From Sphaerolaimus hirsutus (taxonomy: Eukaryota; Nematoda; Chromadorea; Monhysterida; Sphaerolaimidae): a stretch of DNA of 64,000 nt. This document shows, one piece after another, positions 2,608-45,567 of this stretch. Made by a program: the position numbers and the translations under genes. A model generated the notes under the pieces. That model had not been told where the DNA came from, searched no databases, and saw nothing but the letters and a program-made list of their open reading frames with translations. How positions within the stretch are numbered: the first letter of the stretch is position 1; every line of letters begins with the position of its first letter. Location of the stretch: positions 13,047,147 to 13,111,146 of the forward strand of contig OZ038457.1 in assembly GCA_964036195.1 (NCBI GenBank), read 5' to 3'.

Positions 2608-5600
2608 TTATTGTAAACTGTCGTCCTGCTTCAAATAATACCCCCAGTAAGCGGCGTTGAATGCACCAAAAGCCACCGGAACCACAGCGCGGGCGACCAT
2701 ATCGATCAGGGGGCACTCACGGACACTGCAAAATGCCCTGTAATATTTGAAATGTCATGCAAAGTGTCAAAAGTCATTAAAATGCCATGTCAAATGGCGA
2801 AATTTGTTTGCCTTGAGATTTTGCATGGCATTTGGCATTTCACAGGGCATTTACAGGGTCTGGGAGTGGCACCAGCTCGGGCGTCTCCCGCCAATCGCCG
2901 TTGTCCGTCCGCCAAAACTTCAGTTTGTCCACCTGCGGTGCCAACAGTTTGTTGACGATGTTTGGAGGGCTTTGCGCATCGTTCGCGGGTACCCGCCGCC
3001 GCCGACGCGTTTGCAAGTCTCGCCGGATCTGTGCGCAACGGAGGTTTACTTTACACACACAGCAGCTTACCGAAAGTTTTGAAGTTACAATGAAAGTGAT
3101 GTTTAGGTGGTGAGGGAACCTAGAAGTGTAGGTGACAAATAAAATAGTCGATGGAAGTATACTCCCGTAACTTTACACCTTGCACGCGTGGTTCTCCCTG
3201 GAAGCGTGCCAACAAGTATAACTCATGACACATTCATGAAAACTTCAACAAATTCATTTCTGTTATAACATAAGACATCATCGTGTTCACAGCCATGAAT
3301 CTTTTCATCTTTTTTTTTGCAAAAATCACACGCTTTAATTATCATTGGCACACTTCCAACGTGAGACATAAATCAGTGCGAGTGCAGAGTATCAAGTCCG
3401 CCGAGTATACCTATTTTCTTTTCGCTTGATCTTCAATAAACACAATATACAGCGTTTTTACCTTTTTGTCACGCGATAACCGACTCAACATCCAAAATCG
3501 AACTTGCCCACCGAATTAGTCCAATCCAATTTGAAAGCCGACCCACCATGTGCGGCGTCAACAGCGGATCCGACTCGATCCTCTCGAAGGGGCGCGGGCT
3601 GCGCATGCGCGGCCGCTCAGCCCCGCCGCTGCGCCGCCGCCGCACCTCCATCGACGGCACCGGGAACGGCATCGAGGAGTATTTGGCTTCCTGTTGGCTG
3701 GCTTTCTCCTGGCGCCTGCGTCGTGCACAGACAGGGTAGTATAATAGAGCGATGATGCTTAGCGTTCCAAAAAGTCGGTGTCTTTCAGAAAATAAATACA
3801 ATTGAAAATAATCTCAGAAAAAATTTCAAAATTTAAAACTGAATTAAATCTCTCTGAAAATACGCAGAGAAAAGTTGAATTTATATCAAAGTGATAGATT
3901 ATATTATATTTTTCTCATAAAATAAATATTATTAAATGTCTGCGAAAAAAAAACGGGAGAAAACATAAAAAAATAAAAGATTTTTACATATTTTCGTATC
4001 TTACCAAAAAAAATATCGCGAGATTTTTAGAACGCTAATGACGCTCAAGGCTAGGACCCACTTTCTTTCGTTCATTGCGGCCACGTAATTGACTGCGGCG
4101 TACTCGATGAGCGCACCGAACACGAACATGACGCAGGCGCCGATCCACACGTCGATCGCTTTCGTGTAGCTGACCGGCGGCAAGTTCGCATTGTTCATTT
4201 GCGACGTGGCTATCATCGTGAGCAGGGTGACTATGGCCAGGGGCACGCGCGCGGCTGTCGCCTTGAAGTCGATCCAGTAGCTCACCCAGCTAACTGCTAC
4301 CTGCCCAGGTCGTATACGTCAAAATATTTGAGGCGACCAATTCTAAAAATCAACTAGTCCAAAATATGACAATTTCGAGTTAGGCCCGTAAACACATTTT
4401 TCATTTTTTCCACAAATTTTGGACCTGACATGCCCCTATATGACAGTGTCAAATTTGACATATGTTTGGGGGAAAATGCAAAAGATTTAGGCAAGAAGTC
4501 AACAAATCCATTTAGTTTTGTGCTAAAGGTCGACAAGTCAACCTTCTGCAGCTTCTTTTGTTGGGAAAAACGCAAGAAATGTGACAAGTCCACTATGGAT
4601 ACCAATTTCTAAATGTCTACAAGTCCAAAAATTGCCCAGGGAGCCTCGTCGTCGCCGGGAACAAAAATCTTCTCGCATGCAATTTCATTAAAACCTTATT
4701 TAAATCATCTTACTAAAATAACTGACCAACATTCCAGTAGGCACATACAGCTGTATGAGGAAGTAGGAAAAGACCCTTCCAAGGATCAAGACCACTTGTT
4801 CACAACTGTACCGCCCAGTGGTAGTGTTGCTGGTGCAGGTGTTGTTGTACAGCTTCAAGATTCTGAAGTTCGGCATGCACTCGGTGGCGCCCGGCATCAT
4901 ATAGACCGCGTCCTGCGCCCACACATAGAACAGGTCCTCGGTGGTGTACGCGTCTGCATAGGGTGGAGTATCTCAGGACACTTGTAGAAGTGCACTGCGC
5001 TGCGATTAGCATTGAAAAAAATCATGAATTTTTGGAAAATATAAGTAAATAATATCTCAGAAAATGTCTCAAGAATAAAATAGAATTCTCTCTCTAAGCT
5101 TTCAGCTCTCTCAAAAAAAAACTGAAAAAATAAAAATACCTAAATATAAATATCAGAATTTGAGAGATTTTCTGATATTTTTAAAAATCTCTGGAAAATA
5201 TAATTCAATCTCAGGAAAATCGTGGAAAATATAAATCCCAGAAAATCTTATACTTTTTAGATATTCTGAGATTTTTTATTTTATTCTGAGATTATTCTGA
5301 AATATAAATCGCGCTGATTTTTTCAATGCTAGCTGCGTGTAGCTGTGTAGACCGTACAGCTGGAGAAAGTGATGTAGCAAGATTGGGTATCCATCGGGTA
5401 CTTTCGAAGATTCATCTCACAGAATAGGACCAGAGTCAACCTGCGACATACTTAAAGACAGATATAGATCCAAAACGCTACAATAATCCAAATTTGACCC
5501 AACCTTCTATTGTAAGTGACCCTGCCATCGGAACGAATCCGGACGAACATATTTTCCCTGTCAATGTTGTGGTAGTGTCCATCTCTCTCGTTCTGGAAGA

Positions 5601-6391
5601 AAGTGTCTGGTTGCCAAACGCGCTGGTCTTCCGCCAGTGTGATCTGAAGATGGCTGAAAGTTGGATGATTTACTGTCTGGTTGAAGTATCACAATTGCGT
5701 AATAATGCCTGGTCCCTCATCAATAATGGTCCAGCCAGACTGAATTTCAACCTGCCATCCCACCAGACTTGCTGAAATCTCATTTGCACAGTGAATTCCA
5801 TCCTGGCGGCAGAAACTGAGTTGATTGATTGAACGGATACGGATGTGAACACTTGCACTGGTGGAGCTGCATGGATATCTTAAGTTTTACTTTTTCCAGT
5901 GACTGAATTCAATTAACCGGACGCTGTTCTTTGGGCACCATGATCCATTCTTTTTGAAATAGTGCTCTGCCTATTTCCAAATCGTAAGTACTGTTTGACA
6001 GCCCGCCCAAAAAAGCGTTCAGTTCATAAATTTTGCACCAGATCACAGAGCATTATAAAAATACATTTACCTTTATTTATGTAGCGTGATGCCGCAGTGG
6101 GCAACCGCAATGAGCCATTGGTTGTCTGATGTCCGCTGGGCCTGACCCTGTGCGAGTGCCGTGTTACAAGCAGACAGATAAGCTTTTGTTCCGACCAAGC
6201 CAGGTAGTTTTTGGCTTTGCGAAACAGTCCAGAACGGCCACTGTGTCGAAAAACGTGTGAAAAACAGAAAATTATTTCGTTTGCTTTGGGTTCACTGACC
6301 AGCTGTACCGTTGTTCTTTTGTGTGCACATGTACGAGCATGAAAGCGACCATTACTAGCGCATATTTGTGAAACATAATATGATACAACAT
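2608..6391 (-). CDS. Cys-loop ligand-gated ion channel subunit (anion-channel type), complete, ten exons
   Basis: Pentameric plasma-membrane receptor subunit of the GABA/glycine/glutamate-gated chloride channel group. Exons (minus strand): 6300-6391, 6071-6147, 5752-5866, 5504-5653, 5358-5440, 4727-4953, 4062-4300, 3547-3715, 2873-3028, 2608-2715. All junction phases agree, giving about 471 residues, usual for the family. A hydrophobic signal peptide is in exon 1. The ligand domain has [12 protein letters not shown], and the Cys-loop runs [17 protein letters not shown]1 includes [15 protein letters not shown]2 begins [16 protein letters not shown]3 includes [22 protein letters not shown]4 ends the protein ([20 protein letters not shown]). 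The AAR before TM2 fits anion selectivity. The last intron is an introner-like element. Introns also hold two hAT-like MITEs. The ligand cannot be named from sequence; the exon 3/4 junction is the least certain. Confidence 0.9.
2710..2872 (-). mobile_element. Introner-like inverted-repeat element, copy A (last intron of the channel gene)
   Basis: 163-bp element with inverted ends GGGGCACTCACGGACACTG and (minus strand) GTGCCACTCCCAGACCCTG, flanked by CAG on both sides (2707-2709, 2873-2875). Joining the flanks without the element and one CAG gives an uninterrupted channel reading frame running into TM4, so it was inserted in a coding exon. Read on the gene's strand it starts with GTGCCA directly after codon CTG, which supplies the 5' splice site. 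The only nearby in-frame acceptor is GTGAG|TGCCCC, six bases inside the element, so two extra residues (Cys-Pro) would be retained. Introner identity is inferred; the ends, flanking duplication and frame are seen. Confidence 0.8.
3150..3430. repeat. Dispersed repeat, also present near 63.13-63.42 kb
   Basis: Shares the stretch ACTTTACACCTTGCACGCGT and following GTGGTTC...GTGCCAAC, then CTTCCAAC(G/A)TGAGA and CAGTGCGAGTGCA, in the same order with the copy at 63130-63415. It lies in the channel gene between exons 2873-3028 and 3547-3715. I see no termini that identify its class. Confidence 0.55.
3760..4037. mobile_element. hAT-like AT-rich MITE in channel intron
   Basis: Begins TAGCGTTC and ends GAACGCTA. 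Flanking octamers ATGATGCT (3752-3759) and ATGACGCT (4038-4045) match at seven of eight positions. The interior is very AT-rich with repeated TCTCAGAAAA/TCTCTGAAAAT-type motifs. It sits between exons 3547-3715 and 4062-4300. Confidence 0.65.
4331..4640. repeat. Fragment of the TGAGGCG...CGACAAGTCCA element family
   Basis: Begins TTGAGGCGACCAATTCTAAA and contains repeated CGACAAGTCAACC/GACAAGTCCACT motifs shared with the full-length copy at 41241-41870 and a fragment at 21395-21660. It fills most of the intron between exons 4062-4300 and 4727-4953. Confidence 0.6.
5007..5331. mobile_element. hAT-like AT-rich MITE in channel intron
   Basis: Starts TAGCATTGAAAAAAATCATG and ends GATTTTTTCAATGCTA. 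The octamers outside, GCTGCGAT and GCTGCGTG, share their first six bases. The interior has many TCTCAGAAAAT/ATTTTCTGAGA repeats, similar to the 3760-4037 element. It lies in the intron between exons 4727-4953 and 5358-5440. Confidence 0.65.
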
Positions 6392-9362
6392 TTTGAAATA
6401 ACACGGGAAAAGGTTGAATAATCCAGAGTGAATTAGGTAAAGGCGACTGTCAAATGCCTGCAAAATAGGTGTGTTGCAGTTGACAGACACACAAGGCTGT
6501 TTTAGACCCGTTTCATAGAGAAATTGGCGAGAAGAGTGTCCTGCACCTTTGCTATAAGATATTTTTTTAAGATAAGTTATTTATACCCTGCGTGCACACA
6601 ACTATTTACCTAGTTGCATACTGTTGTGTACTGTTGTATTCATTCTGTTGTGTACTGAAAATTTAGTACGCAAAATCGACTGAAAGTAATGGTTGGTGGG
6701 TTTATTTTAGGCTGCCATTTGCATTTTTTATGAAAAAGAACAATATCAAGTCAACTATGGCTGTCAGCCAGTCTGTCAATATGTACTTCAGCCAGTAATA
6801 ATGCAAATGATGTCACCAAAGGTAATTTGATGAATCAAATCATGCTATTATAAACACCGTACTATAATTAAACTATTCGTAGTGTAACTGATTTACTTTA
6901 GTCATAAAACATTGCTTCAGCATTCAGTTTGAAAGCATATTGTAGCAGTTGATTGAACTTACCACAAGTTTAAACTTGTAGTAAGTTCGAAAAACTACTA
7001 CAATATGGTATAAATATAGTGCAATGTGCAGTCCGTAGACCATAGTGGGAGTACAGTGGCAATTTTTACAGCTTTTAATTTTTCCCAGTTATTTTAGAAG
7101 TACATAGGTACTCTGGTATAGGTAAATAGTCACAATTTTGAAAATGTATTTATGTTTGCATTTACTTTTTTGAAAAATATTTACCACAATTATAACAACT
7201 CTGCAACACAGATGACAACTTTGTTTCATTTTATTATGTGTCAAGTGTCAACTAGTGACGCCTCACCCTGCTGAGCGACATCTGACGCTCAACAGTGTTT
7301 GGCGTCACTAACGTGCAAAAGGCCATTCACACACTTTGTCCAGCAGTGCGCCGAGCGCCACGTCAAACTGATTGGGGCACATCTGACACAGTGATTGATT
7401 TCAAGCAGTACGGCGCAATGTAATTTACCTGTGCAACGGACACACGGGGATGCAATCCATACGCCCACTGGGAAATCAGCGCCAGCTCTTCCCGTTTGAT
7501 GTCGCCTTATTTGAGCCTCCACGCTTCCAAATACCCAGCCCTGCAAACGCAACTGATTGATTTTTGTTTACTGTAACGTGGCCACTGTTTCCGTAGTCAG
7601 TTATTACCGTGGTGCTCGACTGAGTGCATTGATTGACTTTTTGCAGTGGTTGGAATCGCAAAGCGGGCCGACAATTTTGTTTTATGTTATTTTCAATCAA
7701 CTAAATAAATACCACAAAATGTGATCATTGAATATTATCATATTGATGTGATCACAATCGCTCCCTTCTCTAGCCTTAAATGGAATGACAGGTTTTTGCT
7801 CTTTTTTACACTCACGGAAAAAAGAAGTCTCCAATAGAATGGCAGGTAGAAATTGTGTTGGATTTGTGCCAGAAACAAAAATATGCGAAAATCGATGGCG
7901 AGAACGTTACAAAAAAGCGAGCACTCAAAACGATTATTTAAATGATCGATGATCCATTATATCTCACTTTGTTTTGTTTGAAATGATGCTCTGACATAAA
8001 ACGTTGCCCATGTTTCATAAAAAAATATAAAACCTATGTTCAAGTGAAAAATGTGTGAATAAAAAGTTGAAAAATAGAAAAGCAGGCTCCAATTGAACAT
8101 CACCTCCAATAGAATAGCATCTCTAATAGAATGGCAAATAAATGAGTTGACGAAAAAATAGAACGGCGTTCTTTTATAAGAAGAAATAAGGTACGTAAAT
8201 ACAGGCGTATAAATAAAATTATTAAGCGTATAATGCATCATTTTGACATGCAAAAAGTAAACTTTCGTCGCGATATCTTGGCGCCAGTTCTGGCGCTATC
8301 CAACAATAAAGGCGGACGTGAAACTGGCGCCAGTGGAAAAAAACGCGAAGCGCCAATGGCGCCATCAATTTGATTTTTGAATCATAAAACTGAACGTATG
8401 GGAGAGTACTGACTTGAGTTTCTTTAGGGTGCTGACTTGACCGAAGGGATATGCTGACTCGACAACTGTGGGGTTTTGGCGCTGGGCACCAAAACCTTGG
8501 TGTTTTTACATCACTATACAATCGCCAGAGTACATTCGATCGCACAGCATGCACAGTGCTGTATGTTCCCATTAAAAACGTGCTCCAGCTGGTAAATAAT
8601 GATAATACTCAGGACAGGAGCGTAGTCAAACTCATTTGATGTGGTAGGCAACCGTTGCCAGAAACAATCAAGCAAGCACATCTAGAATTTAACAGTCATG
8701 CGTTATAACGCAGAAATGCAAAAGTTACATAGAATATAGAAATCACGCACAACGAAAGATTTCTTCAATCTACCTACCTATTCAAAAATATGCTTTTTAA
8801 TACGATTCCATCTATGATTTTGTTTGGCCACTTCACTGTAACAATGGAAAACTCATTAAGAGGCTCAACCATACTGGCACTAACGATTGCGATGTGCGAC
8901 GGTAAATCAATGCATTCTTTCTGCCACATCGAGCAACTTTTGACTGAGATCGGGCTGAGAAACGGTGCAAACCGGTGTTGAGACAAACCAGGTACAACGG
9001 CCACAAGACACCGGCATCCGGTGGCTGAAAAGTGTGGGGAAAGCTTTTTGACTCAAACACAGCGCTGTCGAGGCCAGCGCGCGCCACACTTTAAAATGCG
9101 ATTTTGAAAAATTCGAAATATGTAGGTATGTGCACTTTTGAAATGAAAGTATTCAAATGTGCATGTGCATTGTCATTTGTGAATGATTACGACTATTCTT
9201 GAACTGTGTATAATGCAGACCGAAACATAACTACATTTTTATCGCAAATGGGTCTTAAATTACAGGAGATTAGGATTACATCAATTTTCTCAAGGTAAAC
9301 ATTGTCGCCAAATCAGAACAGTGCCAGTGCCACTGAATTCAAATTAATTTTACTCAATTCAG
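6392..9362. other. Gene-poor region upstream of the channel and Ly6 genes
   Basis: No coding exon is supported. It contains an element related to the CCAATAGAATGGCA family (about 7820-8190) and a small GGCGCC-rich remnant (about 8277-8362). A short inverted repeat around 6940-7003 pairs GTAGTTTTTCGAACTTAC-like arms. The channel promoter and the missing first exon of the Ly6 gene should be here, but I could not identify either. Confidence 0.4.
7820..8190. repeat. Copy of the CCAATAGAATGGCA repeat family
   Basis: Has TCCAATAGAATGGCAGGTAG near its left end and several ATAGAATGGCA/ATAGAACGGCG motifs near the right, with a spaced copy at 14170-14526 and a fragment at 58733-58792. Exact ends are unclear here. 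Confidence 0.5.
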
Positions 9363-10375
9363 GTTTGAAATGCTACCAATGCAAATCGCCGATGAGTAGC
9401 AAAACCAAAGATGTGATGGGAAAAAGCTTCCAACTCGGTGTGCTGTGGGAGCGAAAGAATTGCGTCAATGAGAGCTTCTTTGAAACTATCTGTCAACATG
9501 GATGTCTGGAGGCTCAGTACTTTTCAAATATTGGTTGGTGTCAATTGTAGTTCTGTCACGAACAACGACAATGTAAATATAAAAAAAAGGTGTGTTATGA
9601 AGTGAACGCTTCAATTGCGGTATGTTGCAAACGCAAACATGGAATATTGCAAAGTTGTCAAACGTTTTGAAATATAAAACTTTAATCGGAAGATTTACAG
9701 TGAATTGGCCATAAAACCAATAAAAATATTCTTTCCTGCACAGGTGGGTGGCAAGGTCTGCGAGGCTGCGCAGAGCACATTTTGTCAACCCAACTACAAA
9801 AATTATATGTGAACTCGGCTTCCGACCTTCCCTCACAATGTTTCAATTCATACACTGGTTAGTTCGAAAAGTTGTTTCAAAATAATGATGAGAAAAATCA
9901 TCGTATTAGACTGACAATATTTTACAACGTTGATTTATTTGATGAAAAACTGACAGCAGCATAACGATTGCGTTTACAGTGGTAGTGTAAATCATAGTTG
10001 TTCAAGCGTATTTACGTTTACTCAAAAAGTACATATACTCATGTACAGAGTAAATACGTTTACGTATGCTTTGAAAAAAGTACCTGTACTCGATGTGTTT
10101 TAACACCACTGCGTCGCCAGACGCGAATTATCACCACGACACTGGCAGGTTCAACATCGACCAATGTGCCAGCAGCGTCGCGTCTGTGCATCTGCCGGAC
10201 GGACTCGTGCAACGGCAACTCGTGGCACGGAATGGCCGCGCCCAGTGTGAATTATGCTCAACAAGATAAAAATGCCGCCAGTTTGACCCTGGCGCCAGTT
10301 TTTGGCTGGATTCTGACACTTTATCTACTTTTTAAGAACTTAGGCTTGTATTGTGGTAGCTATTCAATTCTCTAG
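9363..10375 (+). CDS. Ly6/uPAR (three-finger) GPI-anchored protein, 5' exon not found
   Basis: Exons 9363-9533, 9744-9857 and 10149-10375 join in phase 1 at both junctions. The mature domain starts LKCYQCKSP, the classic Ly6 N-terminal CxxC. A middle RGCAEH segment follows, and it ends LCICRTDSCNGNS, the terminal C-CN motif. After this comes a small-residue region and a hydrophobic tail (APVFGWILTLYLLF), which fits GPI-anchor replacement. Such proteins sit on the outer cell surface; no ligand or partner can be inferred. The signal-peptide exon should end in phase consistent with GT|TTG at 9363, but I could not identify it upstream. The first donor is GTTGGT, a form recurring in several genes here. 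The second intron holds a repeat with CAGTGGT...ACCACTG ends (9977-10111). Confidence 0.75.
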
Positions 10376-10901
10376 AAATTAGAATTTGGTGGCGTATGCA
10401 TTTCTGTCTCTTTCGTGATATTGTGATAAAACAAAATGTTAATGCATCCATAAGTAAACCAGTCAACGGCAGCGGCTGTAGAGACAAAATGAAACCCATA
10501 ATTAGAAAACGTCGCCTGATTTCGTCACTAAAAGATGTGTTCATATGTTACCCGGTGGTAAAAGTGAAAAACAAATTAAAGGAGGGAGATAAATATATCA
10601 GCAGTATTTATAAAACGCGATTTATAGATTAATTCAGTTTAAAGCTGTGCAGCGGCGAATCGAGAGCCGATTACTGAGTAAATTTGTGAGATTTCACAAC
10701 AGAATGATCGAAGGTGGAAGTAGGGGTAGTACAAAAAAATTAACTCCGACACGTGAAGTGTTGTTCAAATGAAATGAAATGTACTTTTACCGGTAATCTG
10801 GGTTAATTTTCAAGCACCCACATTTTGTGCGCGTCCGCCGACGTCGCATCCAACCTTATTATCTACCGTAAGTAAAAGCCCATCAGCCTGACCCGAACCG
10901 A

Positions 10902-10908
10902 TATAAAA
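10902..10908 (+). promoter_or_regulatory. TATA box of the cysteine-rich secreted peptide gene
   Basis: TATAAAA about 80 bases before the start codon at 10990, a usual distance for a core promoter plus short 5' UTR. Confidence 0.5.
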
Positions 10909-10989
10909 ACGAACGGGACTTTCGGGAAAACAGGCAAACTTTGCGCAGAGTTGAACTTTGAAACTTTGAAGAGCGAGTTCAACTACAAA

Positions 10990-11755
10990 ATGAATACAGC
11001 AGCAGTACTCATACAGTTAATGCTGATGATCGCGTTGGCATTATCCACAAACGGTAAGACATTCATGAAGAACGCTTTCTGGTAATAACAGGTGCCAATC
11101 CCAGTACGGCGATGATTTACTCACGAGCATGACGCACCCAGGCCAAACGGAGGCCAGGCCACTTTACATCCTGGACAGTTCACATTCTTCCATAAAGCGA
11201 CAGTTTACATCCTGTGGTACATTCTGTACGAAATTGTGCTGTCTGTTGTGTGTACTTAAAGATTATCATTTCGATTTCAATTCATTTCGCACTTGCCGCA
11301 CAAATCGAATTCCGGTGGATGCCAATGTGCCTTTGTGCTGATGCTGATTTTGTGGAGCCATGCACTTTTCATAAATTTTTCACGTCTGTTGCATGACCCT
11401 TGAATGTAAAGTGTGCGAAAAGCACAGATGATACATTGTTTTACATGATGTACTGTGGAATGTAAAGTGTCCAAATACAGAGAATGTAAACTGTCCAGGA
11501 TGTGAAGTGACGCTAGCTCGGCCAAACGTGCGCGACGCACATGAACGCCAAAAAGAGTAACTTGTGCCGCCGCCGCAGCTGGGACCAGACAAAGCGCGAC
11601 ACGTGGTGCACGGAGCAGTGCGGCGCGCTCCTGCCGACCGGCAGTGCAGTCGAGCTCATGGGCGCCTGCGACCCGGACAGTTACATCTGTGCTTGTGAAC
11701 TGCCCACCGATGCAGAGTGTGCTTCTGTTAGTTGTAAATATTTACATAACTCCTG
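10990..11755 (+). CDS. Secreted cysteine-rich peptide with CS-alpha-beta (defensin-like) spacing
   Basis: Exon 1 (10990-11053) encodes a typical signal peptide, Met followed by a Leu/Met/Ile/Ala-rich core, and ends at a GTAAGA donor. The cysteine-rich exon covers about 11510-11755, with LCRRRSW, then WCTEQC (CxxxC), GAC, and ICAC (CxC). That C...CxxxC...C...CxC order is the hallmark of CS-alpha-beta peptides such as invertebrate defensins. Two more cysteines follow before the stop. The junction is not resolved: exon 1 ends in phase 1, but the obvious acceptor (GCTAG at about 11513) would need phase 0. The intron between contains an inverted repeat (11160-11190 against 11485-11510) that may have disturbed it. 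An antimicrobial role is only an inference from the motif. Confidence 0.5.
11125..11535. repeat. Inverted-repeat insertion inside the cysteine-rich peptide gene
   Basis: CACTTTACATCCTGGACAGT near 11160 is mirrored by ACTGTCCAGGATGTGAAGTG near 11490-11510. Flanks carry similar (T/C)GACGCAC octamers near 11131 and 11533. Class uncertain. Confidence 0.5.
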
Positions 11756-11907
11756 ATGGGTGGTCATTGTGTTAACGGTTTGGTCATGGTGCAAGCCGCA
11801 ACTATTTATTTGTATTTATGTTAAGTGCAGCGTTTTGTAGCGGTGATACAGCGATAATCACAAAAAATTAACCAAGGAAACTGTACAAAATCATGATAAT
11901 AGCCACC

Positions 11908-12803
11908 TAGTGATGGAATGGCGCCATGGCGCTGGCGCCATTTGAGGGCGCCAAAGGGCGCCGCGCCATGGCGCCATTGGCGCTTGGCGCCCTTTTTCTG
12001 TGGCGCCCTTGGCGCCTGGCGCCCACATTCTGAAAGGCGCCATGGCGCCCTTGGCGCTTGGCGCCCTTTTTCCGTGGCGCCCTTGGCGCCTGGCGCCCTG
12101 CTTTAGAAGGGCGCCAAAAAGGCGCCAGCAGGGTTTCACGGTGAGTGCTGTGTAAACGAAAAAAAAATGAAAAACGCATCCGTGGATGATCTAAATTCGC
12201 CAGAAAAATGGACGGAGTTGTGTGAGTGGGTGGAAATCTTTCGTCCAACGGTTCATCAGATCTGTCTGACGGATCAGAAGACAAGAATGATGGACCGTCT
12301 GACTTGCAAAATCATAAATAAACTGATTTAAATCGTTGCAATTAGGAAACATTGTTTGGAAAGGTCTATTTGTAATGAATGGATTGTTGTCAAATGACAA
12401 TTTCCATTGCGTTTGAATTCATCATGTGGATTTTATTCAAAAAAAAATTGTTGCTAGCCTTGTTTTTTTTCATTACATCCAGGAGAACGCGAATTACGAA
12501 GTGAATGAGTGAATGGTGCTGTAGAAACATTTTTAGCACACACATGGTCTTGTAGGCACTTTTTTATCCTGGCGCCCTTGGCGCCTGGCGCCCTATTTTC
12601 CAAATGGCGCCATGGCGCCCTTGGCGCTTGGCGCCCTCTTTCCGTGGCGCCCCTGGCGCCCACTTTCTGAATGGCGCCATGGCGCCCTTGGCGCCTGGCG
12701 CCCTTTTTCTGTGGCGCCCTTGGCGCTTGGCGCCCACTTTCCGAATGGCGCCATGGCGCCCTTGGCGCCTGGCGCCATTTTTTCTGGCGCTTTTCCATCA
12801 CTA
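11908..12803 (-). mobile_element. hAT-like non-autonomous element packed with GGCGCC repeats (copy 2, inverted)
   Basis: The 896-bp element has ends TAGTGATGG and CCATCACTA and an exact 8-bp duplication TAGCCACC (11900-11907, 12804-12811). It is nearly identical to the reverse complement of 165-1069, including the unique centre. Different target duplications show separate insertion events rather than one inverted duplication. It lies just upstream of the first visible exon of the unrecognised gene at 12868, probably in an intron. Confidence 0.9.
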
Positions 12804-12867
12804 TAGCCACCTCACCATTTACTTCAGTCTTTTTTATTATAACCTTCCCATTTTTATGTTGTGAAAG

Positions 12868-14638
12868 GAAATATGCCAACAACCAAATGCTGCAGGCTTC
12901 TGGCAGTGTGCCAGCAGTCACCATGTGGGGCGGCGACACACATGAAATCTCGATGGATATGTTCGAGACATTTGGCCTAATTATAGCGCATGCCTTAGTG
13001 GAACAGCAGAAATATATCGTTGCCAGGAGTACCAGAGATGCCACACTTGACCACTTCACATTGTGGTTTGACATCACGTGAGCATCGTTTCCAAGTATAG
13101 GTATGCACAAATTCAACAGCCACAAGCGGGAATCGAACCGGAAGATGAGCGCCCTAGCCGTTGGATTCAATTTTGATATTTTTAACGATGACGTAATGAT
13201 AGAGTGTTTCCTTCAGAAAAATGCATAGCATGCGGTCCGCGGATTATACACATTACAACGATTAAACTTGCAGGTGCAGTACACTGAAGAGAGTAAGGCT
13301 GCCAGCATCGGTGGACATCGATGACATTTTTGGATTTGGCGCCACGGTGACAGATCCCTCCCTTCTGTTTCCCGACTACGATGCCATCACCGGTCAAATT
13401 GATCAGTGTCTACAGACATTCCAATGCACAGTTGGGTTGCAGATTTTCCGCAAGACAATCGAAGTCACATATTCATTGAGCTTCGATGACCAAGGGGTAT
13501 TCTCTGCCGAATATGTAAACTTCAAGGTAGAATAACCGCATCAACATTTCCCACCAGAAAAGAAACAGGAAAAATATCGTTAAGCATGAACTCAGGTGAA
13601 TCGACGCGCACAGCAGCTACCATTTGAATACAAGCATCCCAGGGGATGGTCGCTCGAAATACGGGAGGAAAGTCCAGGATCCCTCGGTTTCACCGCAAGT
13701 AATGGGATTGCCGGTTTGATTGCCGCCGACCAGGTGCCACTCCCGGACCCTGTAAAATGCCCTGCAAAATGTCAAATGTCATGCAAAGTGTCGAAAGTCA
13801 TTGAAAATCCTGGTAAAATGGCAAACGCTGTGTCAAAAGTCATGTAAAATGCCCGGTAAAATGGCAAACGTTGCATGACATTTGACATTTTACAGGGCAT
13901 TTTACAGGGTCTGGGACTGCCCCCAGATCAGACTAGATGTTCCGAAGGTAAAATAAAAAAGTATACACATGGCAGAATAAGTGTCACTCGGTTTCTAACT
14001 ATCAGTACATTGTCTCGCAGAGTGATCGTTTCCTGGAGAAAATCGAAGGCATAGTCGGCTTCATGAGCGCCGATGCGTCGCAGGAATTTCGCAAGCCAGA
14101 TAAAACGGTGGAAGAACTGCCGCTCTACGATTGGATGCAGCTGTGGCGCGCGCACAAGTGAGATGCATACCGTATTCCTTCCAATAAAATGGCATACCTC
14201 CAATAGAATGGCATGTTTTGGCTCTTTTTTTCTGAAACCAATAGAACGGCAGCCTCCAATAGAACGGCAGGTAGAAATTACATTCGATGAGTCCCAAAAC
14301 AAAAGCATAAAAATCGATGGTGTTGTCCAAAAGCATTGAAATATTGATACTAAATTTCCAATTAATTATTCAAATGTTGCTCCAGTTTCAATACAAAAAC
14401 TGTGTTCAAACAAAAAATGTGTGAAAAAAATAGGTGAAAACAATAGAATGGCACTTCAAATAGAACGGCAGGTAAAAATATTGGACGAAAAAATAGAACG
14501 ACGCCCTTCTATTAGAATAAATACGGTATTGGTAAATCTCTTGGCATACGGCATCTAACACAACAAGAATACTTTCATTTTTTGCGCAGGAGACGATGCG
14601 GCAGTCCTGACCGCTTTTGTACACACACTGGGGATTGA
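12868..14638 (+). CDS. Unrecognised protein, 3' part (six exons)
   Basis: Exons 12868-13077, 13274-13526, 13596-13733, 13927-13947, 14021-14157 and 14590-14638 join with matching phases to a stop TGA at 14636. I do not recognise the protein. It is soluble-looking, about 250 residues here, with Trp and acidic residues spread through and no evident transmembrane segment, e.g. TMWGGDTHEISMDMF, FDDQGVFSAEYVNFK and LPLYDWMQLWRAHK. It starts inside a codon, so earlier exons exist; none was found before the GGCGCC element at 11908-12803. Intron 3 is an introner-like element removed exactly. The last intron holds a CCAATAGAATGGCA element. The final exon is the least sure: reading through the last donor also gives an immediate TGA at 14159. 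Confidence 0.65.
13119..13165 (-). repeat. tRNA-derived fragment (B box), possible SINE remnant
   Basis: On the minus strand GGTTCGATTCCCGC is a perfect Pol III B box, preceded by GGCTAGGGCGCTC, which resembles a tRNA D-arm. The spacing is too short for a complete tRNA with anticodon stem, so it is a fragment or short-element remnant within an intron. Confidence 0.35.
13734..13923 (+). mobile_element. Introner-like inverted-repeat element, copy B (exactly spliced)
   Basis: 190-bp element, left end GTGCCACTCCCGGACCCTG, right end GGGTCTGGGACTGCCCC, flanked by CAG (13731-13733, 13924-13926). The coding frame before insertion, ...GCC GAC CAG ATC AGA..., is continuous. The element plus the second CAG forms an intron GTGCCA...CCCCAG, so splicing restores the ancestral message exactly. 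The interior repeats GTCAAATGTCATGCAAAGTG and its inverse, and can fold into a long hairpin. The same element occurs at 2710, 16535, 45184 and, decayed, at about 48951. Confidence 0.85.
14170..14526. mobile_element. MITE, CCAATAGAATGGCA family, TA target duplication
   Basis: Left end CCGTATTCCTTCCAATAAAA, right end CTATTAGAATAAATACGG, TA outside both ends (14168-14169, 14527-14528). Termini resemble the CCGTATTTCCTCG family although the interiors differ, suggesting mobilisation by the same transposase. Lies in the last intron of the gene at 12868-14638. Confidence 0.7.
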
Positions 14639-14946
14639 GGAATGACATAGTTACCCGAAGATGTAATACTGAATGACGAAGAATATTTTATGCATACATA
14701 CAAAATACATAAATACATACATAACAAATACATAACACACAAGTAAGATTCTAGAGGGGGGCAGCACCCCCCATTCATCAAACCCACATAAATACTCCCC
14801 TGTGAAAAAATTCCGGATATAATATTGTGTAGATATTATCTGGTGCCAATTTCAGTGTTGTATTGAGTGCACATCTGCATACGGTAATTAGACTTTAGAA
14901 ATACATACATAGTACATAAACGCTTGTCATATTATTTTAACCCATA

Positions 14947-15393
14947 CAAGGACGTAGCCAGGGGGGGGCGGGGGGGGCGGCCGCCCCCCCCCCCTTCCCG
15001 GGCCGGACCAAAAAATGTGCCAGAAATGGCACTTTCAGACGACGATTTTGGCGACAGTTTGAAAAATTTTTGCGCGCAAGCGCGCTTTCTCCCTTCAAAA
15101 CATCCCTTTTTGGCTGACCAGTCTCCGCGGCCTAAAAGCCAGTGAAAATGGACTCAATTTATGTCCATGTCGCTGTATATGCCTGTAAAATACAGACGTA
15201 TACTGCTGTTTTGGCGCCAATGCCAACACCAGTGGCGCCATGGCGTGGCGCCTACGAATGGCGCCAGCGCCATGGCGCCATTCCCCTACAACAGGGGTAA
15301 AATTTTAGGGGGGGGGGCGCCGCCCCCCCCCCCGTTCGCCGGGCTCCGTATACAATCCGCCCCCCCCGCTCAAAAATCCTGGCTACGTCCCTG
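14947..15393. mobile_element. hAT-like MITE with CAAGGACGTAGCC ends
   Basis: 447 bp, left end CAAGGACGTAGCCAGG, right end CCTGGCTACGTCCCTG, exact 8-bp duplication AACCCATA (14939-14946, 15394-15401). Contains G/C homopolymer blocks and an internal GGCGCC-rich patch (15212-15283). A truncated relative lies at about 24985-25135. Confidence 0.85.
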
Positions 15394-15488
15394 AACCCAT
15401 ATGTAGATCATCAATTACGTGGGAAAAATATACTTTCTCCCACATCATAGAAAAATGACGCCAAATTAACTGACTTTCATGATAAATA

Positions 15489-18400
15489 TTATGTCGCCTC
15501 GCCTCTGCGCCTCTTGTTGATGGGATGTCTGGGATCGGTGATGTCATACCAGTCTTCATCGTTGCGCATATTCGCGTCCTTGGCCGGCCGCAGCGTTGGT
15601 TCGGTGGGTTCGAATTTGACCGCCATCCTGCACGAGTCAGACCTTGGCATTGTGGGGTGGGAAAAATACGGATGGAACGGTAAGTTTTCACATTCAAACA
15701 GTAGCGCTTAGGTAATCACACTTAGATACATACAATGTGAAAGCATGCGGGTTAAAACTGACCAATTGTCACCCTTCTCATCGTCCACATCCAATCTGGC
15801 AGATATGCTTTCGGGTGGTTCGGCTTTCGGTGCGGGTTCAGCATCGGGCCGCGTCTTTTTAGCCGAATGTAAGCGTGACTTGAATTTTTCCAACAAAGCC
15901 AACGTCTGCGCATATCGATTTGAAAGCGTTGAAAACGAAAATTACGAATGCAAATCGAAAATAGTGTCAATATCCAACCTGAGCTTCCCTACCGCCTGCT
16001 TTCCTCCCTATGCTTTTCTTTGTTTCTTCCACATATTTGGCCCGCTGCGCGCGGTAAGTCGCGATCGCAGGTGGCAATTTTACCTCAGCCTCTGCGGGTG
16101 TAATTCCAGTTATTTGTCATCGCAATCCTCAATTATTTCCAAGTGAGAAAGCTACCTTCATCAGACACTACTTTGTCATCTTTCCTACGCGATTTGAGCA
16201 GCTCCTTTCTGAGACGGGCGCTCTCCTCTCGCAGCTTCTCACTGCGTGGATATCGATGTAAATATATCACATATTTACCACGGGTTCCAGTTGACGCCGT
16301 CAATTCAATACATACGTCCGACGGCGAACAGCGTAAACGTGTCAACTCACGCTTCTTCAATGTGTTCCCGCCTTCTTTCCTTGGCAATGATGCCATCCAA
16401 ATCATCCTCCTCCTCCCCATCGGCCGCGTCGCTGACTATTTTCCTTTTCCGTCCATCTCCATCCAGATCGAGTTCCTTTTTCTTGGCTCTCAATCTCTCC
16501 CGTACTCTAAGCGCCAGTTGACTGTCTCCACCAGGGAGCAGTTCCAGTCCCTGTAAAACGCCCTGTAGAATGTCAAATGTCATGCAAAGTGTCAAAAGTC
16601 ATGGAAAATGCCCTGTAAAACTTTGGGGGATATTTTCCATGACTTTTGATACTATGCATGACATTCGACATTTGACAGGGCATTTCACAGGGTCTGGGAC
16701 TGGCACCAGGTTCGCCGTCCGGACCAGTGTGATCAGCGCTCTGTGAGCCGGACGCGTCGTAGGCGGGCTGCTCGGACAGCCTGTCGTCTGCGTCGAGCAG
16801 GTCGTGCGCCGATTTGCTCTTGGATTTCGAGTGCACTTTCTGAAATGGATGTGTTTTCCAATTTATGATTTATTTGTGCTGGAAAACGGAAAGGTAAAAA
16901 AAATTTCAGCTGCCGGAAAACGGAATGGTAAAAAATATTTTGGCTGCCGGAAACGGTGAGGTAAAATTTTCAGCTACTGGAGAACAAAAAGCGAAAACAT
17001 AAAAAAATTCCTGCGCAAACGGAACATGGAAAACGGAAAGTTGAAGTGAGTGTGTCACTCGTTTTTTCCTGAACTATGTAGTTTTGATCTATTGGCCCTA
17101 CACACACTAGTTTTCACCGTGACTGATGTGAAAACTGAAATGGCGACATGGCGACATCCAGCCTACTCATTTTGTATGCTTTATGTGTTTTAGTTTTCAA
17201 ATTTTCAAAGTTTAACTATCTTTTATTTTAACTCAAATTTAAATCAAATCAAATCATTCAACCGTGATTTTTAATTTGCATTTGAAAAAATTTCAGTTTT
17301 CACACGAAGTCACGGTGAAAACTAGTGTGTGTAGGCACATTGAATTGACGAGTTATTCAAAGCTCGAAATTTTTTTAATATTTTACAATCCCTTTGCCAC
17401 GCATCAAACACCCACCTCGTTGAATTTTTGCAATTCCGTGTCTTCCTCCTCCACCTCGTCACCAAACGACAAAACGGTGAAATCGCTGCAAATACAGTAA
17501 ACAACTGACAATTTGATAAATTTTTTATGGATTACAAAAAAACGTAAGATCAAACCGCTTTGCCTTCGCTTTAGATTCCTTCACCTCTTTCTTTTTAGAC
17601 TTTTTCTCCTTGCCTGTTTTCCTGGGCACGATATCGTCGAAAGGATTTTTCAGTATCTGCACATAAATTTAACATCAGCATATCATGGTGATGGGGAAAC
17701 AGGGGTTAAAGAAAAACGCTTTGTTAACACCCAGTTTGTTAAACAATGTCAAAAACAAAATGCTGATTTCTGCAAAAAAGATCCATTTTTGTCTATTTGC
17801 CGATACTCCGGTTATCCTGAGCGTAAAATGTAAAATGTTTGAGTTTTTCTCACCTCTGTTGAGACAACCTTATGAGGACTGAAGGGGCGCTCATCTTTGT
17901 CAATACTTCCGTCGCCAATTTTAAGCATATTGAACAGCGTGTTGCCGACAATCTGACAAGACGTACAAATGTAAGTAAATATATCACATACATACAAAGA
18001 AGGACAAACAACAAAAGACAAAACAAACAGTGCCAAATATGGTGTGCTTTCCTTGAAGTTCAGGGGTTGGACCCAATGTGAAGAAAAACTGGCTGGCGTT
18101 GTCATCTGCACCCCCGTTCGCCATGGCCACCAGGCCGCGCCGCGAGAAACGCAGACGCGAGTGGAACTCGTCCTGGCAAGGTATTGCATGGTAGCTAAGC
18201 TATAGAGTAAAAATTATGGCGAAATTCCAGCTTTCTAGACATGGGGCGTCCAAATTGTTTCCATTACTAGGAAGATCATTGCAATAACAAATCGCTTGCT
18301 GCCCAGCAAAGACATAAAAAACTGTAAATTCGCCCGACACACCTTGAATGGCTTTCCATAGATAGATTCCCCTCCAGTGCCTGTTCCAGTGGGGTCGCCG

Positions 18401-19069
18401 CCCTGCACTATGAATCCCTTGACGACACGATGAAAAATCGTTCCGTCATAGTAACCCTGAGTATTTAAGTAGCAACGTCAGGGGTATTCAAAGGGGTAAC
18501 ACCCCCCCCCCCAAACTGCCCAGCTATCTGTCCCTGGGACCGCTCAGCTATCCATCTATCCCGAGGCAAATTTTTTGGTCACTATCCCTGGAACAACTCC
18601 CCCGTCCCCAATCGCCCAGCTATCTCGAACAATTTTAGAGAAATTTTTACAACATTGACTAAAAATCGCTAATTTGCATACAATTTTATACATTTTCACC
18701 TTCAAAATCACTACTTTTTGTGTTTTATTCCACTTGATTCCAGCTAACGTTTCTACTATGTGCTTATACACCTATTTTCACCCACTTTTAGCGATTTCGC
18801 TCCCTTCTACACCTCTTGTAACTGCTGTCTTGCTAACTACTCAACCACCGGAGGGCCAAAATCTAAAACACCACTAAGCAGCAAATTCACGGGCCGCCAC
18901 TCTCCACAAACAACTCAGCAATGCGCCCAACCTCCATACACAGCTGGACAAAATTCCTGCACGCCTTGGGACACTCTTTAGGCCACAGCTCGATATCGAT
19001 GTCGCCCACTGTGGTGTGCAGGCACACTTTGCCACTGGTGATCGGCTCTTGGATATAATTGCTACTCAT
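15489..19069 (-). CDS. Spliceosome-associated cyclophilin CWC27, complete, twelve exons
   Basis: Component of the activated spliceosome with an N-terminal cyclophilin fold. Exons: 18932-19069, 18343-18456, 18029-18172, 17854-17952, 17544-17656, 17416-17485, 16707-16839, 16351-16525, 16156-16241, 15979-16091, 15763-15905, 15489-15627. Phases agree and give about 488 residues; the human protein is about 470. It starts [15 protein letters not shown], then [48 protein letters not shown] and GKHTIFG. The active-site Trp position of cyclophilin A is occupied by Glu (TPELQGKH), as in other CWC27 proteins, so isomerase activity is probably weak or absent. The C-terminal half is charged and coiled ([37 protein letters not shown]) and ends [15 protein letters not shown]. 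One intron is an introner-like element; another carries a GGCCCTACACAC MITE. Confidence 0.95.
16535..16706 (-). mobile_element. Introner-like inverted-repeat element, copy C (in CWC27)
   Basis: 172 bp with CAG on both sides (16532-16534, 16707-16709). On the gene's strand it begins GTGCCAGTCCCAGACCCTG right after the phase-1 base of a Gly codon, giving the 5' splice site. The frame before insertion (Glu-Pro-Gly-Gly-Asp-Ser) is continuous across the flanks. The ends of the element itself give acceptors that break the frame. The in-frame acceptor is GTGGAG|AC in the adjacent exon, so about two codons of host exon would have become intron. Seen: ends, duplication, frame. Inferred: splice choice. 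Confidence 0.8.
17094..17338. mobile_element. MITE with CCTACACACACTAG ends and ATT duplication
   Basis: Left GGCCCTACACACACTAG, right CTAGTGTGTGTAGGCAC, flanked by ATT on both sides. Subterminal GTTTTCACCGTGACT is inverted at the other end. Three-base AT-rich duplications and these ends are shared with 48337-48564 and 53550-53780, suggesting a PIF/Harbinger-type source. In a CWC27 intron. Confidence 0.7.
18478..18870. repeat. Decayed element of the TATCTATC/GGGGG family
   Basis: Begins TCAGGGGTATTCAAAGGGG, then a C-run and repeated CAGCTATC(T/C)ATC motifs, as in 20520-20921, 54036-54445 and 44695-45182. Right end not defined. In the first intron of CWC27. Confidence 0.5.
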
Positions 19070-24712: not shown

Positions 24713-25979
24713 ATGCAGACTTCAGTGGCTCTGGTTGGCGCCGTGGTCGCCGCGCTGTTCGTGATCGCCGAGGCCGGCGTCAGCAGATACGGTGAGGTTC
24801 AGCGCACACTGCTGCACATGCACTGCACACCCGCAGGACAGGCTCTATCACTCATCATGACCATTCCATTGACAAGCTCCATCCCTGACCATATGAGTAT
24901 AAATAAAGACCTTTGCAAATGTACTCAACATGGTCCTAGCATTTTACCATAAATTTAAATACAAATAGGTACCTACATAGTAGACGTTGGCGCAAACGCC
25001 AACGCCAATACTGTAATGGCGCGGCGCGTAAAAATACCGCCAGAGCCATGACTCCATTCCGCCATTTAAGGCGAAATTTCAGAGGGGCGCTCCATACACA
25101 ACCCCCCCCCACTCAAAACCCTGGGTACGTCCTGGTAATAGTACATACATCGACGTTGAAAAACGAGCAAGCAAATTGAAACGCAACTCACTCGAGTGCA
25201 CACGCGCAGGCCACGGAGACGGCTACGGGCACGGCGTGGGCCACGGCTACGGTGGACATGGCGGCTACGGCCACGGCGGCTACGGTGCCGGATACGGTCA
25301 CGGTGGATACGGCCATGGCGGATATGGAAATGCCGGCTATGGACATGGCGGATATGGCCATGGAGGATATGGACATGGTGAGCTGGGTGCCCATAGTGGT
25401 CTCGCGTGTGCTCGGGTTGGGGTTGATGCATATAACTAATTTCTAACACTGTGAATTTTGACGCTAACAGAGGTGCTTTAACATACCTACCTATACTGAG
25501 TGTTGTAACTGAGTGGGCTTGCGTTGTTTATTATGCCGATAACTTGAATACTAAAACCGTTCACTTGATCGGTTGTGGCAGGCGCCCAACGAAGCGAGGA
25601 ACAATCATCACTTAGATAATTAATTCAGTACTAATTGACTCAGTTTGGACTCTGCAGTTCGTGTGCACATGGCCACAGAAACACACTAACACCTCCAGGC
25701 CATGTGCACGCGTTCGAGAGATACCGCGAAAGCGGCAAAGAGTTCGGCTACTACTTTAAGACGCGGTCAACCACCAACTCAGATGGGCACGGCTACGGCA
25801 ACGGCTATGGCAATGACGGATACGGACACGGCGGCTATGGCCATGGCGGATATGGACATGGCGGCTATGGACATGGCGGCTATGGACATGGTGGCCATGG
25901 TGGATACGGCCACGGCAACGGCTACGGCAGCCACGGCGGATACAAGATGGCCGCCAAAGCCACCGCCGCCAAGAACTAA
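24713..25979 (+). CDS. Secreted Gly/Tyr/His-rich repeat protein, copy 1
   Basis: Exons 24713-24791 (signal peptide, ending SRYG), 25210-25377 (tandem GYGHGGYGHG-type repeats) and 25699-25979 join in phase 1, giving 175 residues. The third exon begins GHVHAFERYRESGKEFGYYF, a non-repetitive charged/aromatic block, then more repeats, and ends KMAAKATAAKN. Secreted Gly/Tyr-rich proteins of this kind are usually structural (cuticle, shell, adhesive or silk-like), but no domain proves which; function is inferred from composition and signal peptide only. Copy 2 lies at 42512-43338 on the same strand with conserved promoter, introns and 3' flank. Confidence 0.85.
24985..25135. repeat. Truncated relative of the 14947-15393 hAT-like MITE
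   Basis: Has the internal GGCGCC-like patch, a C-run and the right end CAAAACCCTGGGTACGTCCTG-like terminus, but no matching left end. In intron 1 of the Gly/Tyr/His-rich gene copy 1; absent from copy 2. Confidence 0.55.
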
Positions 25980-31649: not shown

Positions 31650-32067
31650 TGTTGCACGCACGGGGGTTGCGCAAAAGGGGGTTGCCTTCCCACCGGCGTA
31701 CAGAACCGTGTGCAAAGAACCGTTCAAAGCGGACCAGCGGTGTGACCCTCAACTGGCAAGTGTTGAGGTCACAAAGCTGGGGCGATCGGATGGAGTTTGC
31801 GGAGCGTTCGTGGTGTGATGGTGTGTTTATTTTAGGTGACCGTCGCCGAGCGACAAGTGTCAAAAGGTTTTCATCTCAGTTTCATGAACGTGTCGAGACA
31901 CCGAATGAAATGAGGGAACAGTAAAAGAACTTGAACTGAAAAATACACACGCTGCTTTCCTACTCGATATTGCTCGAAACAATAATGCTACGGGTTACAG
32001 CGAGCGGCGCATGCGATGCGCCGCGACACGAAAAATAACGCGAACTCGCCCATGCATCTGGGCGACA
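31650..32067 (-). repeat. 3' LTR of the Ty3/gypsy element
   Basis: 418 bases, identical to 39544-39961 except for one transition seen at 31773. Outer side GTAC; inner side a G-rich (minus strand) polypurine tract. Confidence 0.95.
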
Positions 32068-43338: not shown

Positions 43339-45183
43339 GTGCGCTCTGGCCGCCCGCGTGTGATTTTCCACCCCACACCCGTGAACTAGCTATGCGTATT
43401 CAACACGTGCCACAATTTCTATTCAATCTTTACATCGCGAAAGCACCGCATTTATATTTCCGGAGAATTCTATAAATGTAATCATTGGAGGTTATCTATT
43501 GTGATATTATTTCTCGTTTATGTGTATACATATTTCGAAGACACGAGAACGAACTGCCAAATGATCAATGAAAATGCAGACAAATCAATCAAATTGAATT
43601 TGTTAACTATTGTGTTTTAGTAGTTGATTGAACTTGTAGTATTGAATCAAAACTACTACACTATGTTTTCCCTACTCCTCGAAGAACACTAAATAACGTA
43701 CACAAAAAGCTCGATATTGACAGCTCTGAAAATGAATGACTGCTGGGCTGCACTGCACATAAATAATTACTTAAGTTAATTTTTTATGTCCTGTAATGTG
43801 ATGACAAAGAAACATCTGCTTCAGTTGATTGCATTGGCTCTATCGTTGATTGCACTTGCGAGTTGAAAACCACCACAACAAGTGCATTTCAGTAGGTTCT
43901 GTCTAGGTATAATATCTAAAGATTGAAGTCATCGCTTGCACATCCTAAATATTGAATCCGTCCACATTTGCAGATCATAATTAGCATTCGAATTAGAATT
44001 TTTTCTATAAATAGTTGTCGAATTTTCAAACAGACATGCTGCAGACAACATTTGCAGATTTTTGGTTTGACACTACAAATAGCTAGACTAGGTATGGAAA
44101 ATTTATAATTTTTATATGTTTCTGCTATTGTATCCATGCATTTTCAATCAAAAATACTGAAAATCTTCGGAAAAACTTTTGCCTGGATTTTGCCAGAAAA
44201 AAATTATCGATTGATTGATGAAAAAATTGGATTTTCACCTTATTTCTAGTGGTGGAACAAACATTCGATGATTCCACCGAAAGTGAAAATTCTAAAACTT
44301 TCTAATTATCAAATTTTTGTTTGCTATCGTCACGAAAAGATGAATTATAACAGTATCAGCGAATGTGAAGTTTCGAAAATTTGAATTATGTAGGTAAGTA
44401 GAGACATTTCGAGCAGAATAGCATGGTTATACTTTATTTGAGTCATTTTTAATTATCACAGTTGGGCACAAACAGCGAGATCATTTTGCAGATACAGATC
44501 TTGAATCTCTCGCTGAAAGGGCCGCCAAAACATTTATTTCCTGAAGTAAGCCGTCACCCACAGGCAGACCTGCGCGAATAAATTGGTATGCAAGTAAACA
44601 GCTATTCTGCTAAGAGTTGCCCACAGTTGCCCACTGGTCAACTGAGCTAGCCTCAATTGTAGTGACTAGCAGGTTTCTAGTAGGGAGGGTAGCTGGGGGA
44701 GGGTTACGCAACCCCCAAACGCTCCAGCTGTGTAACCCAGGCTGAGTAATAGCTAAGCTATTTATATAGGTATACCCCCAAAAGCTTAAGTTTTAGCTAC
44801 TATCACCCCCCCCCCCCCCCGCAAATGATCCATCCATCTATCCATCTGGAATAACTTTTGCATTTATTGTCGCTCAAAATAGCTAATTTTCATACATTTT
44901 GCCCATTTTCATAAATAAACTAGTTTGTGATTTTCCACCATTTAAAAAAAGTATTTGTGGCTATGTAATTTTTTTCCTCTTTCTAGCTAGGTATCTATCC
45001 CCTATTTTGGCGATTTTTCGCCCTTTCTACCTCTACTTCTCTACATCTATTGAACCTCCGCGAAGCGCTCCGCAATCCCATCCCAAAGAAACTTTTTATT
45101 TACCGCTGTGTATCTCTTCTGAGGAGCAATTTACTATCTACCTATTTGAACGCCCCCGGCGGTCCAAATCTACAAGAACCCTG
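43339..45183. other. Duplicated 3' flank, then gene-free sequence
   Basis: To about 43910 it matches the 3' flank of copy 1 (25980-26380 and 27400-27450) without the foldback insertion. Beyond that I see AT-rich sequence and, from about 44695 to 45182, a decayed element with a C-run and CTATCCATCTATCCATCTGG motifs like those at 18478 and 20520. Confidence 0.45.
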
Positions 45184-45314
45184 GGGGCAGCCCCAGACCC
45201 TGTAAAATGTCGAATTCATGCAAAATGCTATGAAAAATGGCAAACGTACGTGATGACGTTGTCCATTTTCTAAGTCATTTCACATCTTACAGGTTTTGGG
45301 GCTGGCCCTGGCAC
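45184..45314 (-). mobile_element. Introner-like inverted-repeat element, copy D
   Basis: 131 bp. On the minus strand it starts GTGCCAGGGCCAGCCCC after CTG and ends GGGGCTGCCCC followed by CAG. The flanks are CTG and CAG rather than a clean duplication, so the site is rearranged or hit an older repeat. The GT end again directly follows the coding sequence of the ORF at 45315-45567. Confidence 0.65.
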
Positions 45315-45567
45315 CAGCCGAATGAACCACAATATCGCGAGAAAGCTCACTAGACAAATGCGAAGCGTACTGCGCTTTTCTTCTCAATTTGGTGATGCTG
45401 ATCAGCGCGTGGGTGAGCGCCACGCCAGCCGCCCTCTCGGACAGCGCCTTCTTGTCCACCCTCGATTCGCTGCCATAACACTGGGCTGGGTAAGTGAGCA
45501 GGTTCAGCAATAGCACAACCACCACGCTTCTCTCGATCAACTGGGCACTGGCCAAGTGGCAGGACAT
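45315..45567 (-). CDS. Short secreted or membrane-anchored protein, unrecognised
   Basis: Starts MSCHLASAQLIERSVVVVLL, a good signal peptide or anchor with a likely cleavage after AQC, then a charged region with LRRKAQYASHLSSELSRD. It reaches the introner-like copy D at GCTG|GTGCCA in phase 1. The acceptor at the other end of that element leads to a stop after two codons, so the protein may end there (about 87 residues) or the true next exon lies elsewhere. No family recognised. Confidence 0.45.

Follow-up and report, generated by a model that had tools for sequence, protein, structure and literature searches.

The window considered here is a stretch of 64,000 bp of the Sphaerolaimus hirsutus genome (GenBank assembly GCA_964036195.1, contig OZ038457.1, positions 13,047,147 to 13,111,146 of the forward strand). 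It carries three short, nearly palindromic elements, each interrupting a coding sequence, that very probably belong to an introner family, i.e. to a transposon that makes introns. The three copies had been proposed in a sequence-only reading of the window, and their ends were found as described there, with CAG on both sides on the plus strand (Table 1). However, the hosts of copies 1 and 3 are minus-strand genes, and on the coding strand the flanks of these two copies read CTG.

Insertions in three host genes

Copy 1 interrupts the end of a Cys-loop receptor gene, for which a weak Neur_chan_memb match (E 0.0095, below the curated cut-off) spans the insertion site. Copy 2 lies in a gene for which a Pfam search gave no match. 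The host of copy 3, taken for a MYPT gene in the sequence-only reading, is actually CWC27, which encodes a spliceosome-associated cyclophilin. As had been proposed, taking the element out leaves an unbroken reading frame in all three hosts, as judged from the pieces adjoining the element at hosts 1 and 2 and from the whole gene in the case of CWC27.

The complete 486-residue CWC27 protein could be assembled and is intact, its named matches are CWC27 proteins, and the remaining 10 introns of the gene are all GT-AG. Copy 3 is positioned in a poorly conserved linker of this protein, and the alignment is therefore little informative on the exact junction. In a tree of 33 CWC27 rows, which included no tardigrade, priapulid or nematomorph rows, the window protein was placed as sister to the nematode rows with support of 95/97. 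Among the 120 listed of 7999 COX1 matches, none to a named animal exceeded 67% identity, and two Logan contigs reached 89% and 79%. No transcript of the same species was present among the 120 CWC27 matches listed, the best full-length identity being ~51%.

Table 1. Copies of the putative introner, their target duplications, relatives and host genes in the window.
Feature	Position	Strand	Details
Cys-loop receptor, last coding pieces	2608..3028	-	2873-3028 before copy 1; 2608-2706 after it (fourth transmembrane segment, TM4, and stop)
Copy 1 target duplication	2707..2709 and 2873-2875		CAG on plus strand, CTG on coding strand
Putative introner copy 1, 163 bp	2710..2872	-	coding strand CTG-GTGCCACTCCC...GTGCCCC-CTG, phase 0
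Host 2, exons beside copy 2	13596..14161	+	13596-13733, 13927-13947 and 14021-14161 with stop
Copy 2 target duplication	13731..13733 and 13924-13926		CAG
Putative introner copy 2, 190 bp	13734..13923	+	CAG-GTGCCACTCCC...CTGCCCC-CAG, exact GT-AG, phase 0
CWC27 gene	15489..19069	-	12 coding pieces, 486 residues
Copy 3 target duplication	16532..16534 and 16707-16709		CAG on plus strand, CTG on coding strand
Putative introner copy 3, 172 bp	16535..16706	-	coding strand CTG-GTGCCAGTCCC...CTGCTCC-CTG, phase 1
Degenerate relative of the element	45180..45317		
Degenerate, partial relative of the element	48925..49035		one GTGCCACTCCC end intact

Element anatomy and genome-wide family

Since each of copies 1 to 3 is almost identical to its own reverse complement, they can be aligned end to end in either direction. 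In the window, GTGCCACTCCC occurs 6 times with at most 1 mismatch (0.40 expected), and GACCCTGTAAAATGCCCTG 5 times with at most 3 mismatches (0.03 expected). The consensus derived from 34 copies is 190 bp long (GTGCCACTCCCAGACCCTGTAAAATGCCC...GGGCATTTTACAGGGTCTGGGAGTGCCCC) and is palindromic at both ends save near the tips, which are GTGCC on the left and, read inward, GGGGC on the right. The window copies have GTGCCA at one end and GGGGCA or GGAGCA at the opposite end. The earlier description of the copies as sharing the same inverted ends therefore holds for the near-palindromic arms but not for the tips. As the two tips differ, the element has an orientation, and it is referred to as sense when the left end (GTGCC) comes first.

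The left tip carries a GT (splice donor), which is missing from the C-rich right tip (TGCCCC) and which was present at the left end in 10/10 copies retrieved via their right end. A second possible donor, GTAAAA, lies inside the left end. The interior includes a T-rich stretch ending in TTTTACAG, and in the consensus an AG is located 19 nt before the junction. Several bases in the right end of copy 3 differ from the consensus, so this copy is not brand new; its last 11 bases contain no AG. Folding of the RNA of copies 2 and 3 predicted long hairpins of -97.7 and -112.2 kcal/mol, respectively (z -10.8 and -13.6 versus shuffles). Copy 1 is also situated between two 544-nt inverted arms (532-1075 and 11902-12445), which are 99% complementary, rich in GGCGCC and ~10.8 kb apart.

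The termini, which the sequence-only reading had taken for those of a repeated family, were counted in 348,482,957 bases of the genome. There are 4064 exact left ends (1563 of GTGCCACTCCCNGACCCTG and 2501 of GTGCCARTCCCAGACCCTG) and 2800 exact right ends (GGTCTGGGASTGCCCC), the latter followed by CAG in 1679 cases and by CTG in 1121. Reversed control words had 0 occurrences in every one of these searches. As in introners, many copies are similar up to the exon boundary at both ends, as judged by these counts and by the 190-bp consensus. Copies 1 to 3 are members of this large family, whose elements are nearly palindromic and ~190 bp long.

CAG precedes 674 and CTG precedes 580 of the 1563 GTGCCACTCCCNGACCCTG left ends. 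A sample was drawn (its loci carry L numbers below) that consisted of 68 loci with 69 of the first 72 listed GTGCCACTCCCNGACCCTG places, three near C1:3.43 Mb being left out. Added to these were 40 places from a list with CTG on the left (two suspected duplicates skipped) and 10 from a list with CTG on the right (two repeats skipped). Eight segmental duplicates, 23 left ends for which no right end could be recognised and, in one further set, 5 duplicates were dropped before counting. In the resulting 97 deduplicated copies, for which it should be borne in mind that 40 sampled places had been picked for CTG on the left, the flanks were CAG/CAG in 24, CTG/CTG in 30, CTG/CAG in 15, CAG/CTG in 1 and other in 27. 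Identical CAG or CTG is therefore found on both sides in 54/97 copies, and 16 more are mixed CTG/CAG or CAG/CTG. The target is CWG (W = A or T) rather than the CAG of the sequence-only reading.

Coding location, orientation and the acceptor site

The 180 bases surrounding each empty site, i.e. the site without the element, were scored with a codon model for which CWC27 was the sole training gene. In the 69-copy set, which comprises the window copies and those from the places listed first, 22 copies were classed as sense-coding and 2 as antisense, and 45 were unclassified. Of 2000 positions drawn at random from these loci, 46 were sense-coding and 50 antisense, which gives a coding enrichment of 24/69 versus 96/2000 with an odds ratio of 10.6. 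All 107 copies taken together comprised 31 sense, 4 antisense and 72 unclassified (p 3.5e-6), and a self-trained codon model gave 29 sense and 3 antisense out of 74. The frames to the left and right of the element agree in 23 of the 25 copies that could be scored, where one third would be expected by chance.

Pfam searches of the empty-site frames found matches above the curated cut-off that cross or start at the site in 11 of 36 distinct genome sense frames, which were in part chosen by eye and in part a systematic set of 20 taken in order. The domains at or across the site include Oscp1 (L113), Aa_trans (L119), Cullin (L076 and L077), Patched (L087), Abhydro_lipase (L050), CHGN (L019, two copies), 7tm_2 (L020) and AA_permease (L032), as well as COMM (L064), which is barely above its cut-off. 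The Cullin alignment of L076 has only three residues beyond the site, and the matches to NHL (L116) and PI-PLC-Y/C2 (L055) were below their cut-offs. In the systematic set, the one for which antisense frames were also submitted, a match was obtained in 4/20 sense and 0/20 antisense frames; the 16 sense frames of these first 20 that gave no Pfam match include several that are the longest and not the true frames. The two copies at L019 (2001-2266 and 3045-3208) lie in a single chondroitin synthase-like locus, one of them being CTG/CAG and the other CTG/CTG.

Given the coding enrichment and the predominant sense orientation, the family is very probably an introner, as the sequence-only reading had proposed for a CAG target. 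Some results nevertheless weigh against this interpretation. In the 69-copy set, 45 copies were not classed as coding, although the model is a simple one that overlooks real exons, the one at copy 2 among them, and the question of whether most copies fall outside introns is therefore half answered. Copy 3 sits in the training gene and is not independent, and its exclusion leaves a sense to antisense ratio of 30:4. Finally, 4 of the 35 classed copies are antisense, though two of these (L119 and L020) are sense by Pfam.

If removed exactly, the intron would be GT-AG in copies with CAG on the right, of which copy 2 is an example, and GT-TG in those with CTG on the right, such as copies 1 and 3 on the coding strand. 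The sequence-only reading did not remark that two of its three examples lack GT-AG at the element ends. In eighteen CTG/CTG copies, AG is absent from the final 11 bases of the element; 6 of them were classed by the codon model as sense, 1 as antisense (L119, sense by Pfam) and 11 were unclassified, and the 7 that could be scored are all frame-coherent (7/7). In L113, which is CTG/CTG, 42 residues are matched to 42 profile positions of Oscp1, with the site after frame residue 36, and the CHGN (L019) and Aa_trans (L119) domains likewise span the sites of CTG/CTG copies in frame. It is slightly more likely than not that this animal genome splices hundreds of introns as GT-TG, with a helper AG 19 nt upstream and with CTG hit about as often as CAG.

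The competing view that deserves most attention is an introner with strict GT-AG splicing, in which the CTG copies use neighbouring AGs or the GTAAAA donor, or are broken alleles. AGs were listed in ten CTG/CTG copies from 75 bases before the element end to 60 past the duplication. Downstream-exon AGs that are in frame, at a loss of 6 to 57 nt, were found in 8/10 of these copies, and the GTAAAA donor provides extra in-frame pairs, e.g. with a net change of 0 nt in L019. In copy 1 an AG that keeps the frame lies 9 nt ahead of the junction (+9 nt), and in copy 3 one lies 6 nt past it (-6 nt); the corresponding figures are -9 nt for L117 and -15 to -57 nt for others. All of this counts against GT-TG splicing, and neither window copy alone therefore proves TG. 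The excess of CTG/CAG copies described below also suggests that AG is preferred. Nonetheless, in 7/10 listed copies no in-frame AG is present within the element, the exceptions being L113 (+45 nt), L119 (+18 nt) and L015 (+69 nt, with a stop), and the downstream losses would delete matched domain residues in L019, L113 and L116. Use of the right-end AG of GGGAG by CTG copies predicts more GGGAG there, whereas fewer were observed (389/1121 versus 690/1679, p 8e-4), and this candidate was rejected. On this evidence, strict GT-AG splicing is considered rather unlikely, though it is the most serious alternative to GT-TG use.

A special retention of the upstream AG in CTG copies was also considered. 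An AG located 13 to 25 nt ahead of where the element ends was present in 38/39 CTG/CTG copies and 35/39 CAG-right copies (p 0.36), and such retention is unsupported; the helper AG is available but not peculiar to the CTG class, which also counts against GT-TG use. In the 69-copy set there are nine CTG/CAG copies for a single CAG/CTG copy (p 0.02). Genome-wide, CAG makes up 60.0% at right ends versus 53.7% at left ends (p 2e-4), a comparison that relies on different exact words and in which a subfamily effect is possible. The simplest reading of this excess is selection for AG, whereby CTG insertions would gain an acceptor-side T-to-A change that leaves the protein unchanged.

The other explanations do without an introner or without the spliceosome. 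Somatic removal at the DNA level, comparable to the eliminated sequences of ciliates and with the CWG repeat as the cut site, would account for a palindrome with short direct repeats and for precise restoration with CAG and CTG alike. It is very improbable, since no orientation bias would be expected where 31 sense and 4 antisense copies were counted, the left-end GT is kept in all ten copies fetched by their right end, and the CTG-to-CAG excess is confined to one side. Removal from RNA by a hairpin-guided route that bypasses the spliceosome, which has been proposed for nonconventional euglenid introns, is hardly more credible: the very stable predicted hairpins would put the ends close together, but a palindrome folds alike both ways and so predicts no sense bias, and copy 2 is exactly GT-AG. 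An ordinary miniature inverted-repeat transposable element (MITE), unremoved and present in exons by chance or as recent harmful alleles, is equally far from the data. It could explain the 45/69 copies outside recognised coding sequence, but not the coding enrichment, the sense bias, the frame coherence or a CWC27 gene that is intact in all other exons, and copy 3, as noted above, is not brand new.

Elsewhere in the window, a long terminal repeat (LTR) retrotransposon at 31650-39843 has identical 300-nt repeats (31650-31949 and 39544-39843) and minus-strand frames at 32408-35650 and 35651-38188 with RVT_1, RNase H and integrase domains. A palindrome at 26669-27152 consists of two 242-nt arms without a spacer that are 98% complementary, and duplicated stretches at 25295-26070 and 42966-43429 encode Gly/His/Tyr-rich repeats.

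Proposed mechanism and comparison with known systems

The reading preferred here, to which we assign a probability of about 75%, is that the introner family is a non-autonomous, near-palindromic MITE that targets CWG and makes new introns in one step, with either AG or TG as the acceptor. Insertion at a CWG would create the intron directly, with the 5' splice site supplied by the GT of GTGCCACTCCC in the left end of the element and the 3' splice site lying where the duplicated target ends. Where the coding strand has CAG, the intron would be GT-AG and the message would be restored exactly. Where it has CTG, the intron would be GT-TG and would have to be accepted by the spliceosome, possibly with the element's own AG 19 nt upstream defining the intron and the downstream TG joining the exons. 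Later acceptor-side T-to-A changes may then convert some GT-TG copies to GT-AG. As CTG appears to be hit about as often as CAG, the use of GT-TG would, if true, double the usable targets and leave an acceptor-side trail of CTG-to-CAG repair.

The element was probably derived as a MITE from NuwaI transposons (PHIS/Harbinger). Matches to DDE_Tnp_4 number 163 in the genome, and most of those listed (e.g. C1:2186255-2186878) have near-equal scores, 4 in-frame TGA and ~190 nt more than the profile needs; an intron in these genes is likely. Among the places listed on C1, no match was seen by eye near introner ends and none was tied to the family; no autonomous element with introner ends was found. 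In the cited part of its description, NuwaI produces 5'-CWG-3' duplications, has terminal inverted repeats (TIRs) usually starting with GGG and is so far confined to animals (PMC4482050). The CWG duplication of the window family matches this, as does its right end (GGGGCA inward), whereas the left end (GTGCCA) departs from GGG.

The origin of new introns is an old question and reports of introners in animals are few; according to the passages cited from Gozashti et al. 2022, introners were detected in no more than two groups across animals and land plants, with copepods named (PMC9860276). The family described here would contribute a large number of new introns, in an animal close to nematodes, and no description of this introner type in nematodes or near relatives was found in the open-licence literature, in keeping with the earlier suggestion that it is undescribed. 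In common with the introners of that study, it consists of transposon-like introns in many genes, with TIRs and duplications. Closest in splice-site logic are the introners of Chrysochromulina, in which, in the same passages, the element supplies the 5' splice site and the target duplication the 3' site, but there the duplication is 4 bp long and TIRs are lacking (PMC9860276). Relative to the introners covered there, the window family is set apart by a full palindrome with a 3-bp CWG duplication, by its host, an animal close to nematodes, and by an acceptor predicted to be AG or TG.

For the acceptor, the nearest parallel is the TG 3' splice site of 36 human genes, which in the section cited is always an alternative to an AG that lies no more than 28 nt away (Szafranski et al. 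2007, PMC2374985). In the view suggested by the authors of that study, the first step requires AG, while TG can be selected later. Here too an AG is near, 19 nt upstream of the TG, in nearly all CTG/CTG copies. In humans, however, TG is only an alternative to the nearby AG, whereas here it is predicted to be the frame-restoring site in many introns, a difference that also speaks against GT-TG use. With an acceptor that is AG or TG as set by the target, the family would provide a natural experiment on the requirements of the spliceosome at intron 3' ends. The introner elements of Amoebophrya resemble it in that the introns have hairpins, inverted repeats and short direct repeats (PMC7789003), and Fritillaria offers a parallel as an animal with non-GT-AG splicing on a large scale (PMC13326754). 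As far as the cited parts of these two reports extend, intron boundaries there vary widely or accompany duplicated U2AF proteins; in the window family, by contrast, it is mainly the W of CWG that varies, and the ten other introns of CWC27 are GT-AG.

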